The position numbers were made by a program, and so were the translations under genes. Shown here piece after piece: positions 19,387-35,911 of a stretch of DNA of 56,208 bases; the stretch's first letter is position 1, and every line of letters begins with the position of its first letter. Source of the stretch: an uncultured Mycoplasmatota bacterium (GTDB taxonomy: Bacteria; Bacillota_I; Bacilli_A; RF39; UBA660); contig CAOKBR010000003.1 in the NCBI GenBank assembly GCA_948466735.1, positions 1 through 56,208 of the forward strand, given 5' to 3'. The notes beneath the pieces were generated by a model. That model was not told the DNA's origin. It worked only from the letters and a program-made list of their open reading frames with translations, and did not search any database.

Positions 19387-19726
19387 TTATTTTATAATAC
19401 TTACTACGACTCTTGCACCAACATTAGTCCGTGTAGTATTGATGTTACATTAACATTCCATGCACGATTAAAACCAAATGAATATGCATCCATTGGTCAA
19501 TAGGCAGCATTATTTACTCCATCATTTATCGTTCCTCCATGTCCTAAAATATAAGTATTAGTAGCACAACTAAATTGATTGGTAGATGCATCATAACTAC
19601 ATTTGATGATTCAATCATATTTTCAACAGTTCCATCTTTTGAAAAGGTAAATACTGCAAAAATTACTCCAACTGTGGCAATTGCTAATAAAAGTAACATT
19701 ACTACTAATTTCTTCTTTTGTTCCAT
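19387..19726 (-). pseudogene. TasA/CalY-like SipW-type surface protein, remnant with internal deletion
   Basis: The N-terminus is intact from the ATG at 19726 (GGAG upstream): an export segment and then FTFSKDGTVENMIESS, the family hallmark. After about 40 codons the sequence jumps directly, in another frame, to the C-terminal Cys domain (CSYDASTNQFSCATNTY), matching the copy at 41766-43011. An in-frame TGA follows NNAAY, and a further frame change restores TNVGARVVVSIIK before the final stop. So some 300 residues are missing and at least three lesions are present. It is a dead gene, informative for the family's history. Confidence 0.75.
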
Positions 19727-19805
19727 TTCTCTTACTCCTTTTTAAAACAAAAAAAGGATGAAAACATAGTTTCACTCTTACGTGTATCATTTATTAATTT
19801 TATTT

Positions 19806-19888
19806 TAAGGTCTAACCCTCCCCTAGTTAATTTAAGGTTAACAAGATAAGCAGGAATAGAAAATTTTTTATTACTAATTCTTTTTCAT
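19806..19888 (-). pseudogene. Degraded copy of the LTRGG small ORF
   Basis: The frame encoding AYLVNLKLTRGGL lies upstream of the broken TasA-like gene, as in the copies at 31117-31281 and 35696-35776. An ATG at 19888 is out of frame by one A in an A-run, so the copy looks frameshifted. The G-tract is four G, then A, then GGG. The Leu codon before Val-Asn is CTT here, against TTA and CTA in the other copies. Confidence 0.5.
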
Positions 19889-23838: not shown

Positions 23839-24540
23839 TCTTTTTTGATATTGAATCGCTGCTTTAATAAACATATCGAAAATCTTTTTTTCTTTTGCAT
23901 CTATTCTAACTAATCGTTCTGGATGCCATTGTAATCCTAGATGAAAACTACATTTTGGATATTCTAGTGCTTCAATTAGTCCATCAAATGAATAAGCTAC
24001 TACTTGATAATGTTTATTTTCTATAGCATGATAGCGATGAAGACTATTTACCATAAGTTCTTCTTTTCCGATGATTTGATAAAGTAAGCTATCCTTTTTA
24101 ATGGTAACCAAATGAACATAATCTTTATCAATCATCCGATGATCTAGTCCTTTTTCATCGTTTGGTTCTACAAATATTTTATCATGATAACAAGACATAA
24201 TTTGCATACCTAAGCAAATACCCAAAATAGGAATATCTTTTTCTATGGCATACTCTAGTGCATAAAAGTCCTGCTCGCACATCTTGTTTCCCCCAGGAAG
24301 TAAAATGCCATCTAATAAATCTAATTCGCTTCTTAACATTTCTTTTTCTTCCAAAGTCATTTTAGGAATTTCACTTAACTTCGTTTGGTAATAGTAAACA
24401 TCTTGAATTGGAGTAATCGCTACAGGTATCCCATTAGAATTTAGAATCGCACACCGATACGCTTCTTCCATCGCTAAAGAAGACTCATCAACTAAATTCA
24501 TCGTCGGGCGAAGCATAATTCCAATTCTTGGTTTACGCAT
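23821..24540 (-). CDS. Class I glutamine amidotransferase-like peptidase (C26 family)
   Basis: A 239-aa protein of the gamma-glutamyl hydrolase/PuuD type. The nucleophile elbow GICLGMQ and the His-Glu of LQWHPE complete the Cys-His-Glu triad, with LLPGGNKM as the oxyanion loop. It probably hydrolyses gamma-glutamyl amide bonds. The start overlaps the end of ileS by 8 nt, so it is translationally coupled to a tRNA synthetase, which is not an obvious pathway link. It ends at the hairpin 23811-23838. Confidence 0.85.
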   Translation of the reverse strand: MRKPRIGIMLRPTMNLVDESSLAMEEAYRCAILNSNGIPVAITPIQDVYYYQTKLSEIPKMTLEEKEMLRSELDLLDGILLPGGNKMCEQDFYALEYAIEKDIPILGICLGMQIMSCYHDKIFVEPNDEKGLDHRMIDKDYVHLVTIKKDSLLYQIIGKEELMVNSLHRYHAIENKHYQVVAYSFDGLIEALEYPKCSFHLGLQWHPERLVRIDAKEKKIFDMFIKAAIQYQKRKKTTN

Positions 24541-27265
24541 TATCTTCTACCACATCATGACAACGCTTACAAACATCATTTATCATTTCATCTTCCATAA
24601 AATAGTTCCAACAACGTTGACAACGAACGCCATCAAATGGTTCTACCTTAACACCTACATGTTGATAACGTGGCAAGTCTTCAGTAGTTAAAATTACATC
24701 AGATACAATAAATAATCGCTTAAATTCACTACCTAACATAGTGGCAACATTTTGATACTTCTCTCCTAGATTTAAATAAACTCTAGCTTCTAATCCTTTA
24801 CCAATAAGTTTAGTTGCGCGTGCTTCCTCTAAAGCCTTATAAACATCATCTTTAATTTCAAAAAATTCATCAAATAATGATAAAATTTCATCTTTATTTT
24901 GATAATTCACAATGTCTTTCATCGATAATAAATGTACACTTTCCTCTTTTACTCCAGGCATCATTTGGTAAACTTCTTCACTAGTATAAGGTAGGATTGG
25001 TGCTAAAAGTCGTACCATAACATCTAAAACTTCACAAATTACCGTTTGAACACTGCGTCTTACTAGGGAATCTTGTTTTTCAATGTATAAAATATCCTTA
25101 GTAAAATCTAAATAAAAGTTTGATAAAGTAAAAGATACAAAATTGTTAATTGTTTTATAAATTTCTTGGAACTCATAATTTTGATAATCTTCAATGATCT
25201 TTTTTGCTGTTTGATTAAGTTTTACCATCATATATTGATCGTACTTCATCATATTTTTAAAATCAACTTTATCCTTACTAGGGTTAAAATCAAATAAGTT
25301 TCCAAGTAAGAAACGATAGGTATTTCTAATTTTACGGTAACTTTCTTTTACTTGATCAAGTAATTCAGGACTCATTTTAAAGTCTTCTGTATAATCAACA
25401 CTTGCTACCCATAAACGTAGGATATCTGCTCCATCTTTTTCTACAATATCACTTGGGGCAATGGTATTTCCAATACTTTTTGACATTTTAACGCCTTTTC
25501 CATCTAAAGTGAAACCATGAGATACTACTTGTTTGTAAGGTGCTTTTCCATGTACCGCATAACCGCAGATTAAAGAAGAGTTAAACCAACCACGATATTG
25601 ATCGCTTCCTTCTAGATAAACATCTGCTGGATACGGTAAGCCTCTTTCTACTAAAACGCTAGTATGGGTACTTCCTGAATCAAACCATACATCCATGATA
25701 TCTTCTTCTTTAGTAAAGTTACCATTTGGACTTTTAAGATTCGTATATCCTTCTGGTAATAGTTCCTTAGCACTTTTGGAAAACCAAATATCACTGCCAT
25801 ATTTTCTAAATAAATCAGCAATATGCATCATAACTTTTTCATCTAAGATTTCACTACCATCTTCATTATAGAATATAGGAAGTGGTACACCCCAAACTCT
25901 TTGTCGAGAAATACACCAGTCTCCACGATCAGCAATCATATTATGTAAGCGAATTCTTCCCCATTCAGGATGCCAAGTAACATTTTCATCGATTTCTTTT
26001 AACAAGCCATCCCGAATTTTATCAATGCTACAAAACCATTGTGGTGTTGCTCTAAATATTACTGGTTTTTTTGTACGCCAATCATGAGGATATGAGTGGG
26101 TAATCATTTTTAGTTTTAGTAAAATACCTAATTCTTCTAATTTTTTTGTTATTTCTTTATTCGCATCTTCAAAATATAAACCTTGAAATTCTCCTGATTC
26201 TAAAGTTAAAACTCCTTGATCATTTACTCCGTTAATCATTCCTAATTTGTATTTATTTCCAATGATGAAGTCATCCACTCCATAACTTGGGGCAATATGA
26301 ACTAGTCCTGATCCTGAATCTAAAGTAACATGATGTCCTAAAACAACTTTACTATCACGATCCATTAATGGATGATGATAAGTAACTCCTAGTAAATCAC
26401 TTCCCATAAAAGTTGAGGTAACTTGGTAGTTAGTAAACTCAAATTCTTGACATAGTGACTCTACTAATTCTGTTGCCATAATATAATTTTTACCATCAAC
26501 AGCTACTTTGCTATAGGAAAATTTTTCACCTACAGCAATTGCTAAGTTTCCAGGTAACGTCCAAGGGGTTGTTGTCCATATTACTAAACTATCATTGGAA
26601 TCAACAAAATCATTTCCTATAACTATTGGAAAAGCAACAAAAATAGATGGATCTGTTCTATCTTTATATTCGATTTCTGCTTCTGCTAGGGCTGACTCAC
26701 TAGATGGTGACCAATAGACAGGTTTTAATCCTTTATAAATCAATCCTTTTTTAGCCATTTCACAAAATACTTCAATTTGTCTAGCTTCCATTTCTTTTTG
26801 TAAGGTAATATAAGGATTTTTATAGTCTCCAATCACATTTAAAGTAAGGAAATCTTTTTTTTGTAGTTCTACTTGTTTTAAGGCGTATTCATGACACAAT
26901 TTACGAAATTCTAGCTTAGTCATTTCTTTACGATTTACACCGCTATTAGTAATTGCTTGTTCAATTGGTAAGCCATGGGTATCCCATCCTGGAATATAAG
27001 GAGAAAAATACCCTAACATCAATCTTGATCTAGTGATGAAATCTTTTAATACTTTATTTAGCGAGTGTCCTAAATGAATAGAACCATTCGCATACGGTGG
27101 ACCATCATGCAAAATAAAGGTAGGATTTCCTTCATTTTTCTTTAACATTTTTTGATATAAATCCATATTTTCCCAAATTTCACGTTGTTTTTTCTCGTTC
27201 TCTGGTAAATTGCCACGCATTTGAAAATTGGTTTGTGGCATTAGTAAACTTTCTTTGTAATCCAT
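24533..27265 (-). CDS. ileS: Isoleucyl-tRNA synthetase
   Basis: A 910-aa class I synthetase that charges tRNA-Ile and edits valine. The HIGH-type motif is PPYANGSIHLGH (~57-68), KMSKS lies near residue 595, and the editing domain sits between them. The C-terminal zinc finger uses CQRCW and CKRCH. It is controlled by the T-box leader just upstream. The downstream amidotransferase gene overlaps its end. Confidence 0.97.
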   Translation of the reverse strand: MDYKESLLMPQTNFQMRGNLPENEKKQREIWENMDLYQKMLKKNEGNPTFILHDGPPYANGSIHLGHSLNKVLKDFITRSRLMLGYFSPYIPGWDTHGLPIEQAITNSGVNRKEMTKLEFRKLCHEYALKQVELQKKDFLTLNVIGDYKNPYITLQKEMEARQIEVFCEMAKKGLIYKGLKPVYWSPSSESALAEAEIEYKDRTDPSIFVAFPIVIGNDFVDSNDSLVIWTTTPWTLPGNLAIAVGEKFSYSKVAVDGKNYIMATELVESLCQEFEFTNYQVTSTFMGSDLLGVTYHHPLMDRDSKVVLGHHVTLDSGSGLVHIAPSYGVDDFIIGNKYKLGMINGVNDQGVLTLESGEFQGLYFEDANKEITKKLEELGILLKLKMITHSYPHDWRTKKPVIFRATPQWFCSIDKIRDGLLKEIDENVTWHPEWGRIRLHNMIADRGDWCISRQRVWGVPLPIFYNEDGSEILDEKVMMHIADLFRKYGSDIWFSKSAKELLPEGYTNLKSPNGNFTKEEDIMDVWFDSGSTHTSVLVERGLPYPADVYLEGSDQYRGWFNSSLICGYAVHGKAPYKQVVSHGFTLDGKGVKMSKSIGNTIAPSDIVEKDGADILRLWVASVDYTEDFKMSPELLDQVKESYRKIRNTYRFLLGNLFDFNPSKDKVDFKNMMKYDQYMMVKLNQTAKKIIEDYQNYEFQEIYKTINNFVSFTLSNFYLDFTKDILYIEKQDSLVRRSVQTVICEVLDVMVRLLAPILPYTSEEVYQMMPGVKEESVHLLSMKDIVNYQNKDEILSLFDEFFEIKDDVYKALEEARATKLIGKGLEARVYLNLGEKYQNVATMLGSEFKRLFIVSDVILTTEDLPRYQHVGVKVEPFDGVRCQRCWNYFMEDEMINDVCKRCHDVVEDNA

Positions 27266-27295: not shown

Positions 27296-27528
27296 AACAA
27301 AAAATAGACCTCCTGTTAAAGGACGTCTATCTCACGCGGTACCACCTTTATTTATGGATAATTCCATACTCTTGATTCACATAACGGGTGAATGCGGCTT
27401 TATCTTATCCATAAAGCACACTTGAAAGTGATTCTAGGATAGGCTTATTATCTTCTTCCACCAAACGAAGACTCTCTATTAATAAGGCTTTATTCCTACG
27501 TCTTTCGCACTTGTTTTTTCTGATATAG
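27296..27528 (-). promoter_or_regulatory. T-box riboswitch leader of ileS
   Basis: On the minus strand the T-box GGTGGTACCGCG (27335-27346) is followed by a terminator hairpin, ATAGAC-TCC/GGA-GTCTAT with a T-run (27303-27330). The preceding ~170 nt form the stem I-III region. CCTATCCTAG in its 3' side offers an AUC (Ile) triplet as specifier. Uncharged tRNA-Ile would bind, stabilise the antiterminator and allow ileS transcription. Confidence 0.92.
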
Positions 27529-31066: not shown

Positions 31067-31116
31067 TTATGAGCTAGTAACAGCAATATTACCAGCACTA
31101 TGTGTTATTGTTCCTA
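31067..31116 (-). pseudogene. C-terminal tail of an LRR surface protein, out of frame
   Basis: The final ~16 codons (FVIGTITHSAGNIAVTSS) match the end of the copy at 34054 but lie in a different frame from the NKTGRSFNW part at 31117-31203. They are the broken tail of the same relic. Confidence 0.6.
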
Positions 31117-31281
31117 TTACAAAAGTAGCAGCAGTATTTGCTCTTGCCAATTAAAACTTCTACCCGTTTTATTAATAATTTTTCCTAAATTAGGATTAGA
31201 AAAGCTCCCTCCCCCCCTAGTTAATCTAAGGTTAACTAAGATAGGGATCAAAAGATAAAAACCATTACTAACTCGATTCAT
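31117..31281 (-). pseudogene. LTRGG small ORF fused to an LRR-protein C-terminal relic
   Basis: From the ATG at 31281 (AGGTAGG upstream) the frame reads MNRVSNGFYLL..., then ILVNLRLTRGGGSF. It runs straight on into SNPNLGKIINKTGRSFNW, which matches residues near the C-terminus of the BspA-like copy at 34054 (SNPNLEKIINKTGRSFDW). A shifted frame follows. So the small ORF is joined in frame to the tail of a surface protein whose middle has been deleted. The G-tract is seven G, then AGGG. Confidence 0.65.
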
Positions 31282-34053: not shown

Positions 34054-35559
34054 TTATGAAGATGATATTACTACGCTCCCAACACTTCCAGTTACAAATG
34101 GTGTTCCTGTAGTTCCTCTAATAATATCATTCCAATCAAAACTTCTTCCTGTTTTATTAATAATCTTTTCTAAATTTGGATTTGAAGAAGAGTACTTATA
34201 TAATGCCATTTGCCCAATCGTTGTTACACTACTAGGAATAACTATGCTAGTTAATTGATTATCAAGAAATGCCCCTTGCCCAATCGTTGTTACACTACTA
34301 GGAATAACTATACTAGTTAATTGATTTCTAGAAAATGCAGAATTTCCTATTAATGTTACACTATTTGGTATTGTTACGCTTGTTAATTGATTATTAGAAA
34401 ATGCATAATCTCCAATTGTCGTTACATTATTTGGTATTTCTACGCTTGTTAATTGATTAGTAGAAAATGCAAAATTTTTTATTGATGTTACACTATCAGG
34501 TATTGTTACACTTGTTAATTGATTATGAGAAAATGCCAAACCTCCTATTGTTGTTACACTATCAGGTATTGTTACACTTGTTAATTGATTATAATAAAAT
34601 GCAGAATTTCCTATTGTTGTTACACTATCAGGAATTGTTACGCTTGTTAATTGACTATAAGAAAATGCAGAATCTCCTATTGTTGTTACACTATTAGGGA
34701 TAGATAAAGAGACAAGACTATTTTCATAAAATGCATAATCTCCAATACTTGTTATCGTATTTGGAAGAACTACACTAGTCAAACGAGTAGTTCTATTAGC
34801 AAAGACATTATCGCCAATTGTTGTTACTTTTACTCCATCAATAGTGTATGGAATTACTACGTCACTACTACATTCATCACTATATCCAGTAATTGTTCCT
34901 GTTGTTTTTTCAAAGGTAAAACATGCTTCATCTGTAAAGTTTTCACTAGATACTTGTTTTGCATACACATTTACTTTTACTCCATACTTTCTTGATTCAC
35001 CGTTTGGAATTTCTGCACTTTCATCTACCCACATACGTAATCGATAGTTATGAATTGTTGTTCCTTCTTCCATAAAAATTCCTGAATCTAAAATCATTGA
35101 GCCTATTGGAGAACCTACTTCACTTTGACTTTACATTGCCAAAAAATTACTAGGAGCCATTACTTGTTGATAAGTTGTATCAGGATCTACTGCTCTTTCT
35201 AAATAAAGTTTTACTTCGTTATCTTCTAAAGGGGTTACATCGCTAATTGGCAGTTTTACTGCACTTACTTCGTAAGTTATAACATTACTTTTTCCAAGAG
35301 TTGCTTGGACTGTAAAATCAAATACATTGTTTTCACCTACTAAAACTTTTCCTTTTTCATCAGAAATCGGATACGCTTCATTTAACATAATTCCTGTTTT
35401 TCCTTCGGTGTATGTTAACACGATGGTTGACGTTTCTAGAGTATTTTCAACAGTTCCCTCTTTTGTAAAGGTAAATGCTGCAAAAGTGACTCCTATTGTT
35501 ATTATTACTAAGAGAAAAAGCATTACTATAGATACAATTATTTTCTTTTTATTTTTCAT
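34054..35559 (-). pseudogene. TasA-like N-terminus with BspA-type LRR C-terminus, broken by one nonsense codon
   Basis: The ATG at 35559 has GGAG upstream. The N-terminal part carries the SipW-type segment and FTFTKEGTVENTLETS. The frame stays open to the end except for one TAA at 35131-35133 (after SNFLAM), where the intact relatives have no stop. The neighbouring copy has GAA (Glu) at that point, so a single G-to-T change explains it. Downstream are ten leucine-rich repeats of the LRR_5/BspA type (TTIGNSAF...NQLTSVTIPDSV, 23 residues each), then NKTGRSFDWNDIIRGTTG and the end VISSS. Unless the stop is read through, only ~142 residues are made. Confidence 0.75.
34190..34810. repeat. Tandem ~69-bp coding repeats (LRR units)
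   Basis: About nine near-identical 69-bp units encode the 23-residue LRRs of the surface protein. Several neighbouring units differ by only a few bases, so copy number could change by slippage or recombination. Confidence 0.8.
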
Positions 35560-35642
35560 TATCTTAAACTCCTATTATTTTTTAGTATACCCTTATTTTT
35601 TCCTAAATACTTAATTGTTAACTAAAACATAATTTTTTACCA

Positions 35643-35682
35643 CAAAAAGGAATAGAGACACTTCCTATTCCCTTTGTTTTCC
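35643..35682 (-). terminator. Terminator after the LTRGG small ORF
   Basis: GGAATAG-gaagtgtct-CTATTCC followed by TTTTTG on the minus strand. It lies between the small ORF and the TasA-like gene, making the small ORF a separate transcript. Confidence 0.65.
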
Positions 35683-35695
35683 AAATAATTTTACT

Positions 35696-35776
35696 TTAAA
35701 AGCTACCCCCCCCCCTAGTTAATCTAGGGTTAACTAGATAATGTAGACGCATATCTTTTCCTATCACATTTACCAT
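35696..35776 (-). CDS. LTRGG small ORF, 26 aa, complete copy
   Basis: A 26-residue product: MVNVIGKDMRLHY then LVNPRLTRGGGSF and stop. Support: GAGGTG 6 nt before the ATG, a promoter upstream, a terminator downstream, and two related copies (19806, 31117). Between copies the G-tract grows from G4A to G7A to G10, in steps of three, which keeps the frame. The Leu codon varies synonymously (CTT, TTA, CTA). I do not recognise the peptide. It could be a secreted signal, a leader peptide, or part of an uncharacterised repeat. A dyad, TAGTTAA/TTAACTA, lies in the coding DNA. Confidence 0.5.
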   Translation of the reverse strand: MVNVIGKDMRLHYLVNPRLTRGGGSF

Positions 35777-35800
35777 TTTCTACACCTCTACTTTATGTTC

Positions 35801-35829
35801 ATTCTATCATAAAAATATTTTTTTAACAA
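35801..35829 (-). promoter_or_regulatory. Promoter of the LTRGG small ORF
   Basis: Minus-strand TTGTTA (35824-35829) and TAGAAT (35801-35806), 17 nt apart, 25 nt before the start codon. Confidence 0.5.
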
Positions 35830-35911
35830 TAATTAAATAAACCCTTTGTTAAACTTTTCTATTAAATGTAAGTTAAATTTGAAAGCGCACAATTGAAGGA
35901 GGAATATTATC

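Follow-up and report, generated by a model that had tools for sequence, protein, structure and literature searches.

A putative multi-copy poly-G frame switch that may control surface-protein genes through transcription termination in an uncultured Mycoplasmatota bacterium

What is kept when a short open reading frame (ORF) that ends in a run of guanines recurs in AT-rich DNA: a peptide, a stretch of DNA or a reading frame? The question is raised by contig CAOKBR010000003.1 (assembly GCA_948466735.1) of an uncultured Mycoplasmatota bacterium, of which positions 1 to 56,208 were analysed; this stretch of 56,208 nucleotides (nt) is called the window throughout. An earlier note on this DNA had described a 26-residue peptide gene with the pattern LVN-[P/L]-[R/K]-LTRGG, present in three copies that were each tied to a TasA-like surface locus. 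The three motif copies, all on the minus strand, are real, since a 23-base pattern with at most three mismatches matches the window three times and is matched in none of 100 dinucleotide shuffles; the number three is valid for the window alone. Judged from their sequences, these copies most likely form part of a phase-variable attenuator system, a poly-G frame switch present in many copies that would work by way of transcription termination.

The leader frame, the double stop, the hairpin, the stop positions of the three frames, the copy-to-copy differences in tract and frame and the surface-type genes on the same strand can all be read directly. In the model built on them, a promoter would lie upstream of a short leader ORF, with the poly-G tract just before the end of the leader, and replication would add G residues to the tract or remove them. 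In two of the three frames the ribosome would meet a stop codon no more than about 16 nt past the tract and leave the hairpin free, so that transcription would end and the surface gene would be off. In the third frame a longer peptide would be made and the ribosome would enter or cross the hairpin, so that no terminator would form and the surface gene would be on. The benefit could be the independent, stochastic expression of many surface proteins.

By one fixed definition there are 55 copies, 14 in the window's own genome (G000) and 41 in a second genome of the genus (G001), the only further one within a set of 98 genomes of the wider family; these two genomes measure 1.1–1.3 Mb. Locus L114, with a purine tract of 5 bases, was left out before counting, and more divergent copies stand outside the 55, among them L007, L011, L012, L015, L058, L062, L151, L154, L167, L260, L265, L266 and L289. 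A looser pattern finds 18 places in G000 and, when reversed, none. L017 was rejected as a copy, as it sits within a longer open frame and looks like a chance match. A codon-degenerate form of the motif has matches in three of the 98 genomes, at 8 places in G000, 18 in G001 and a single one in G015, which reads as ordinary coding sequence and was not retained as a leader. All named records bearing the motif belong to one 'uncultured Bacilli bacterium' assembly, in agreement with G001, and the exact pattern had no match in viral contigs. The longest G-run of a copy varies from 3 to 13; it is at least 9 in 32 of the 55, and the tract is shorter or interrupted in the remaining 23. Poly-G is indeed unusual in this AT-rich DNA, as had been pointed out: a G10 tract is the longest G/C run of the window, and the 1.06 Mb genome holds 7 runs of at least 9 G versus 0.27 expected from a first-order Markov model of the window. 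By inspection all 7 of these, as well as the 29 in G001, fall in the leader or its variants, some of which are decayed.

The region downstream of the tract is built in a recurrent way. Within 22 nt, a double stop (e.g., TAAAATAA) closes two frames at once in 46 of the 55 copies, and a hairpin followed by a U-run comes after the tract in 48. All 48 hairpin sequences differ; their median z is -3.3, and 38 lie in the bottom 5 % when each is ranked among its own dinucleotide shuffles. Forty-three copies have both double stop and hairpin, and here the frames can be fixed by the double stop. Allowing 14 nt beyond the stop codon, termination of translation leaves the hairpin clear in 42 of the 43 in the first frame, in 42 in the second and in 1 in the third. 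Between the double stop and the far end of the U-run, no stop interrupts the third frame in 30 copies, the second frame in 22 and the short frame in 5, where dinucleotide shuffling predicts 12.9 ± 2.9 (maximum 24 in 1000). In a shorter test, which extends to 14 nt before the hairpin, the third frame is open in 42 of 43 copies and the other two in 35 and 36, as compared to 35.1 ± 2.2 (maximum 41) in mononucleotide shuffles.

Does the downstream gene depend on this arrangement? Promoter-like pairs upstream of the leaders score 8.92 versus 7.98 in mononucleotide shuffles (n=50), and by the same comparison there is no excess of such a signal between terminator and gene (8.07 versus 7.99, n=15). 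A downstream ORF of at least 60 codons is present on the same strand in 35 of the 55 copies, in 16 of which less than 45 nt separate the U-run from the gene. With so short a gap, and promoter-like pairs only upstream of the leader, the downstream gene most likely depends on read-through. Twelve of the 20 copies that have no downstream ORF are found at contig ends or in truncated loci. The proteins encoded downstream begin, by eye, with a hydrophobic secretion-type N-terminus in 31 of 35 cases, with signals of the form ...GVTFAAFTFxKEGTVENTxETGT... or ...YALFSxNQISKSAITIKAGT.... The proposed tie to TasA and leucine-rich repeat (LRR) genes thus stands as far as surface-type genes on the same strand are concerned, with BspA-type LRRs in 8 of 27. 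However, the TasA-like part of that claim is not borne out: none of 27 downstream proteins matches a family model of the TasA type (Pfam and NCBIfam, E 0.01), none of seven N-terminal parts does so in NCBIfam at E 10, a sequence search of the PDB gave no match to TasA, and TasA is absent among the 50 fold matches listed for a low-confidence model (pLDDT 44) that is too poor to judge. SipW-class signal peptidases are encoded in G000 (TIGR02228, five matches, four of them over the cut-off, L290-L293), and the downstream products are possibly SipW-dependent surface proteins.

A switch also supposes that copies are found in different phases. The 46 double-stop copies divide into 28 of the short phase, 4 of the second short phase and 14 of the open phase. 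Similar leaders can be one G apart and hence differ in frame (L033 with G10 and L042 with G11; L020 with G10 and L023 with G11). In short-phase copies the third frame passes the U-run in 17 of 25, made up of 14 of 17 with pure long tracts and 3 of 8 with short or interrupted ones, as expected if only switchable copies need an open third frame; the numbers are small and the copies related. The open third frame of these short-phase copies would be explained equally well if RNA polymerase slipped, or the ribosome shifted frame, on the tract, a G10 run being a plausible slippery site. Each cell would then contain a fixed mixture of short and long products, with no heritable switch. Such slippage at the RNA level is unlikely to account for the element, because tract lengths and phases differ between the genomic copies, and because tracts of other genera (see below) lie between -35-like and -10-like boxes, where a change at the DNA level would matter.

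The leader ORF looks translated, as the earlier note had maintained, with an in-frame ribosome site and ATG across copies. Of the 54 copies with at least 60 nt of upstream DNA, 44 have an ATG that reads into the motif in the LTRGG frame and follows a ribosome site, for which any of six 4-mers was accepted; the other two frames have such a start in 1 and 0. The distance from ATG to motif ranges from 9 to 75 nt, every one divisible by 3. A conserved peptide as the product is not supported by this comparison: N-termini are free to vary, and copies disagree in the frame that follows the tract. Frame breaks, which had been named in advance as evidence against a peptide gene, turn out to be common (18 of 46) but they favour one frame by 14 to 4 (binomial P 0.03, for copies that are not independent). 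Conservation of a DNA dyad had been the other alternative put forward; its left arm is gone in the MKINQKLTRGG branch (ATTAACCAAAAATTAACTAG), and the dyad is therefore not what is kept. The reading frame, and not the peptide, is probably the signal.

One might still see here a family of small-peptide genes (signal, antimicrobial or regulator), with ...LTRGGGSF/SL as the product and the surface genes as mere neighbours. The short phase is after all the commonest, LTRGG and its codons are strongly kept, and the ORF has promoter-like boxes and a terminator of its own. We nevertheless regard this as quite unlikely: the part preceding the motif varies from a few to about 25 residues without conserved sequence, the favoured frame of the frame-breaking copies is the one that enters the terminator, the 16 surface genes close behind the U-run probably need read-through of that terminator, and in other genera the frame logic is preserved although the peptides are unrelated.

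L010 of G000 and L079 of G001 match in their upstream flank and differ in leader and downstream gene, which suggests that leader-plus-gene cassettes are exchanged between species. This pair, together with the near invariance of the core DNA, would fit a block of homologous DNA through which cassettes are swapped between surface-protein genes, conserved by recombination rather than for regulation. It is very unlikely that conservation has this origin, as the frame-dependent stops, the in-frame starts and the hairpins would go unexplained; such a block may, however, coexist with the switch. A leader peptide followed by a terminator is also the layout of a classical attenuator, in which a metabolite or the secretion status would be sensed by ribosome stalling, either at the rare codons AGG (Arg) and GGG (Gly) or on account of the LTRGG nascent chain. 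AGG GGG GGG codons are unusual at 30 % G+C, but the four leader folds contain no obvious competing antiterminator, stalling does not need frame-dependent stops, and the unrelated leaders of other genera have only poly-G in common, all of which makes an arrest-type attenuator highly improbable. Pairing of a tract with the terminator has been described for Bacillus pyrG. That the G-tract is an RNA-level target, paired in this manner or bound by a RepG-type trans-acting small RNA (sRNA) as in the Helicobacter pylori system that can be counted in its favour (PMC8295292), is the least probable explanation of all, given that in-frame ATG, double stop and open third frame would all be unneeded and that the tract is not paired alike in the four leader folds, with no sRNA search made.

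The phase-variable attenuator can also be set beside the poly-G tracts of related genera. G-runs of at least 9 are present in 43 of the 98 genomes, very unevenly, and in the members inspected they are often located at, or upstream of, the beginning of a gene that encodes a secretion signal or a prepilin-like start. Loci were assigned by hand to an ORF type or a promoter type, leaving out L177 and L226, whose ATG looked accidental, and loci fitting neither type. Of 38 ORF-type loci from 10 other genera, 36 have stops in two frames within 22 nt and 37 keep the third frame open for 49 nt or more, or as far as the available DNA reaches; without L190 and L204, which are followed by too little DNA, both figures become 35 of 36. 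Nine of the 38 show the open phase. The same frame criteria give 24 and 6 for 28 promoter-type loci. Since the leader peptides look unrelated across genera, the frame logic is what is kept.

Four designs can be told apart. A leader ORF before a hairpin recurs in G053 and, less clearly, in G007. In G035, the sole long open frame of the leader terminates at the ATGA with which the following gene begins in five of six loci examined (L205, L213, L234, L235 and L250, with G9–G11), which suggests a translational-coupling version of the switch. Poly-G lies within the first codons of a surface or prepilin-like gene in G043, in G031 and in some loci of G015 and G028. Elsewhere in G028 and G015, and in G013, G011 and G018, it separates -35-like and -10-like boxes, with implied spacers of 13–21 bp. 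In G013 (L134, L183-L185, L258), G011 (L192, L202, L210) and G018 (L208, L219, L221, L223), 9–14 G separate TTGAC[A/T] and TAnnnT boxes (implied spacers 17–21 bp); this looks like classical promoter phase variation, several of these loci preceding secretion-signal genes. Two further uses of poly-G were seen. In G022, a box TGCRAYT-GGGGGGGGG-TGCRATACAWT stands before surface-type genes (L169, L171, L172, L174-L180, L182), with the gene start about 43 nt past the tract in L169 and L172. It has 9 G in all 11 loci viewed, by a 9-G search pattern that would miss shorter tracts, and this constant length suggests a putative binding site rather than a slippage tract. In L187 and L256 of G002, and similarly in L186 and L188, the G9–G10 tract appears to supply the 5' arm of a terminator hairpin (GGGGTAAATATTTACCCC, followed by a U-run). 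These hairpins precede downstream genes, and tract length could tune the terminator itself.

A number of observations weigh against the attenuator. The second frame is also open through the U-run more often than the shuffle average (22 versus 13 of 43), which weakens the contrast between frames, and the third frame fails to pass the U-run in 13 of 43 copies: nine end within the hairpin (including that of the intact window copy), three at 1–6 nt before it and L071 well before it. In G007 (L138) the stop at +34 apparently falls short of the hairpin. The model does not need the strong conservation of LTRGG and its codons, whose silent sites scarcely vary. Among the 14 open-phase copies the tract is short or interrupted in nine and a run of 8–10 G in five; L001 and L005 have no start and L002 is a relic, so that some open-phase copies may be decayed and not switched. 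Eight of the 55 copies have no downstream ORF within the limits used, in spite of ample DNA. The differences in tract length seen here are those between copies; only 4 of the 14 G000 copies share their upstream flank strongly with a G001 copy, and none of these 4 differs cleanly in the tract alone. Finally, poly-G lengths in databases can be wrong, as noted in a study on Bifidobacterium (PMC9187656).

A wider claim, towards which we lean by a little, is that a small genome here runs a combinatorial surface-antigen system of many genes, each with its own poly-G switch, and that the family has reused poly-G for contingency switches of further designs.

How do the three copies of the window fare individually? 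All their features lie on the minus strand. Copy 3 (motif LVNPRLTRGG, 35734-35712) is the sole intact one, and the complete gene that had been described here is confirmed in its parts: a 26-aa ORF in the 'short' phase (35776-35696, MVNVIGKDMRLHYLVNPRLTRGGGSF) with the ribosome site AGAGGTG upstream, promoter-like boxes TTGTTA (35829-35824) and TAGAAT (35806-35801) separated by 17 bp (score 9 of 12), and a hairpin with U-run resembling an intrinsic terminator (35644–35674, local fold -11.1 kcal/mol). Its G10 tract, the proposed slippage site, occupies 35706–35715. The double stop TAAAGTAA (35691–35698), directly 3' of the tract, closes two of the three frames, and the stop of the third frame (35667-35665) falls within the hairpin. 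The downstream surface-protein gene lies 146 nt from the tract; its N-terminal part, with a secretion-type signal, forms an ORF of 142 aa (35131–35559), and a BspA-type LRR ORF (34054–35097) is the apparent continuation of this interrupted gene. As the gene (34054-35559) is split in two, copy 3 looks inactive in any phase. The region 35560–35900 has no Rfam match up to E 10.

In copy 2 (LVNLRLTRGG, 31236-31214) a leader ORF of 54 codons (31117–31281), with the purine tract AGGGGGGGAGGGAG (31205–31218), continues into a remnant of an LRR protein C-terminus; by eye, the stretch 31067–31204 resembles the C-terminal ends of other LRR surface proteins. Position 31117, given in the earlier note as a motif site, is by arithmetic the low end of this ORF (31281-31117). 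Copy 1 (LVNLKLTRGG, 19842-19820) has a decayed leader without in-frame ATG and with the tract AGGGGAGGG in the open phase (19816–19842), a weak hairpin with U-run (19751–19779, -4.3 kcal/mol) and a truncated surface-protein gene of 60 codons (19547–19726). Two details of the earlier comparison were right: the Leu codon before Val changes silently between the three copies (CTT, TTA, CTA), and the tracts (GGGGAGGG, GGGGGGGAGGG and G10) show the three-base difference. Elsewhere in the window, a T-box leader (27316-27519) precedes a tRNA-synthetase gene (24533-27265).

If the model holds, the frame-switched attenuation known from two pilus loci in a single streptococcus can be a genome-wide strategy, and an uncultured small-genome lineage of Bacilli would invest heavily in stochastic surface variation. 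The DNA signature (in-frame ATG, poly-G, double stop, hairpin) would allow predicted on and off states to be read in metagenomes, and caution is advisable before leader ORFs of this kind are annotated as peptide genes.

To which known systems does this candidate switch come closest? In pyrBI-type attenuation of E. coli, a ribosome that enters the terminator lets transcription continue, under the control of UTP and with no heritable frame switch. The mechanism proposed here has the former step in common with it, and differs by its heritable frame switch. The RepG/tlpB system of Helicobacter pylori acts through an sRNA and is not known to involve leader translation or terminator read-through. 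It resembles the present element by the length-variable G-repeat in an mRNA leader (PMC8295292). In the sortase-pilus switch of Bifidobacterium, a variable poly-G likewise governs a surface structure in a commensal, and its slippage was measured by deep sequencing; unlike here, the tract sits between two parts of the pilin coding sequence and thus acts at the coding level, and the available text describes no leader ORF or terminator control (PMC9187656). The coding-start type of G043, G031, G015 and G028 appears closer to that switch than does the window element.

The nearest relatives are the pil1 and pil3 loci of Streptococcus gallolyticus, where GCAGA repeats lie in a leader ORF (Danne et al. 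2014, PMC3894217). According to that paper, the stop codon of the low state lies 39 or 49 bp before the terminator (both figures appear) and that of the high state close to, in or beyond the hairpin, a model supported at pil1 by a start-codon mutant and terminator reporter constructs (PMC3894217). The features that mark the pil1 type, a leader ORF, a slippage-prone repeat, an intrinsic terminator and a frame-dependent stop position, are all predicted here, and the order is the same in both: promoter, leader ORF with the repeat, phase-dependent stop, terminator and then surface-structure genes, in our case from sequence alone. No homopolymer attenuator, and no report for this lineage, was recognised in the full-text literature, which included few subscription papers and was judged from search listings. 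So far as the streptococcal work is available, the differences are a G homopolymer in place of the GCAGA repeat, two phases that would be off and one that would be on, whereas there the in-frame number is low and the out-of-frame numbers are high, different target proteins, and 14 plus 41 copies in two genomes as against two pilus loci. The element is thus most likely a known frame-switch logic, here combined with poly-G and multiplied within small genomes.
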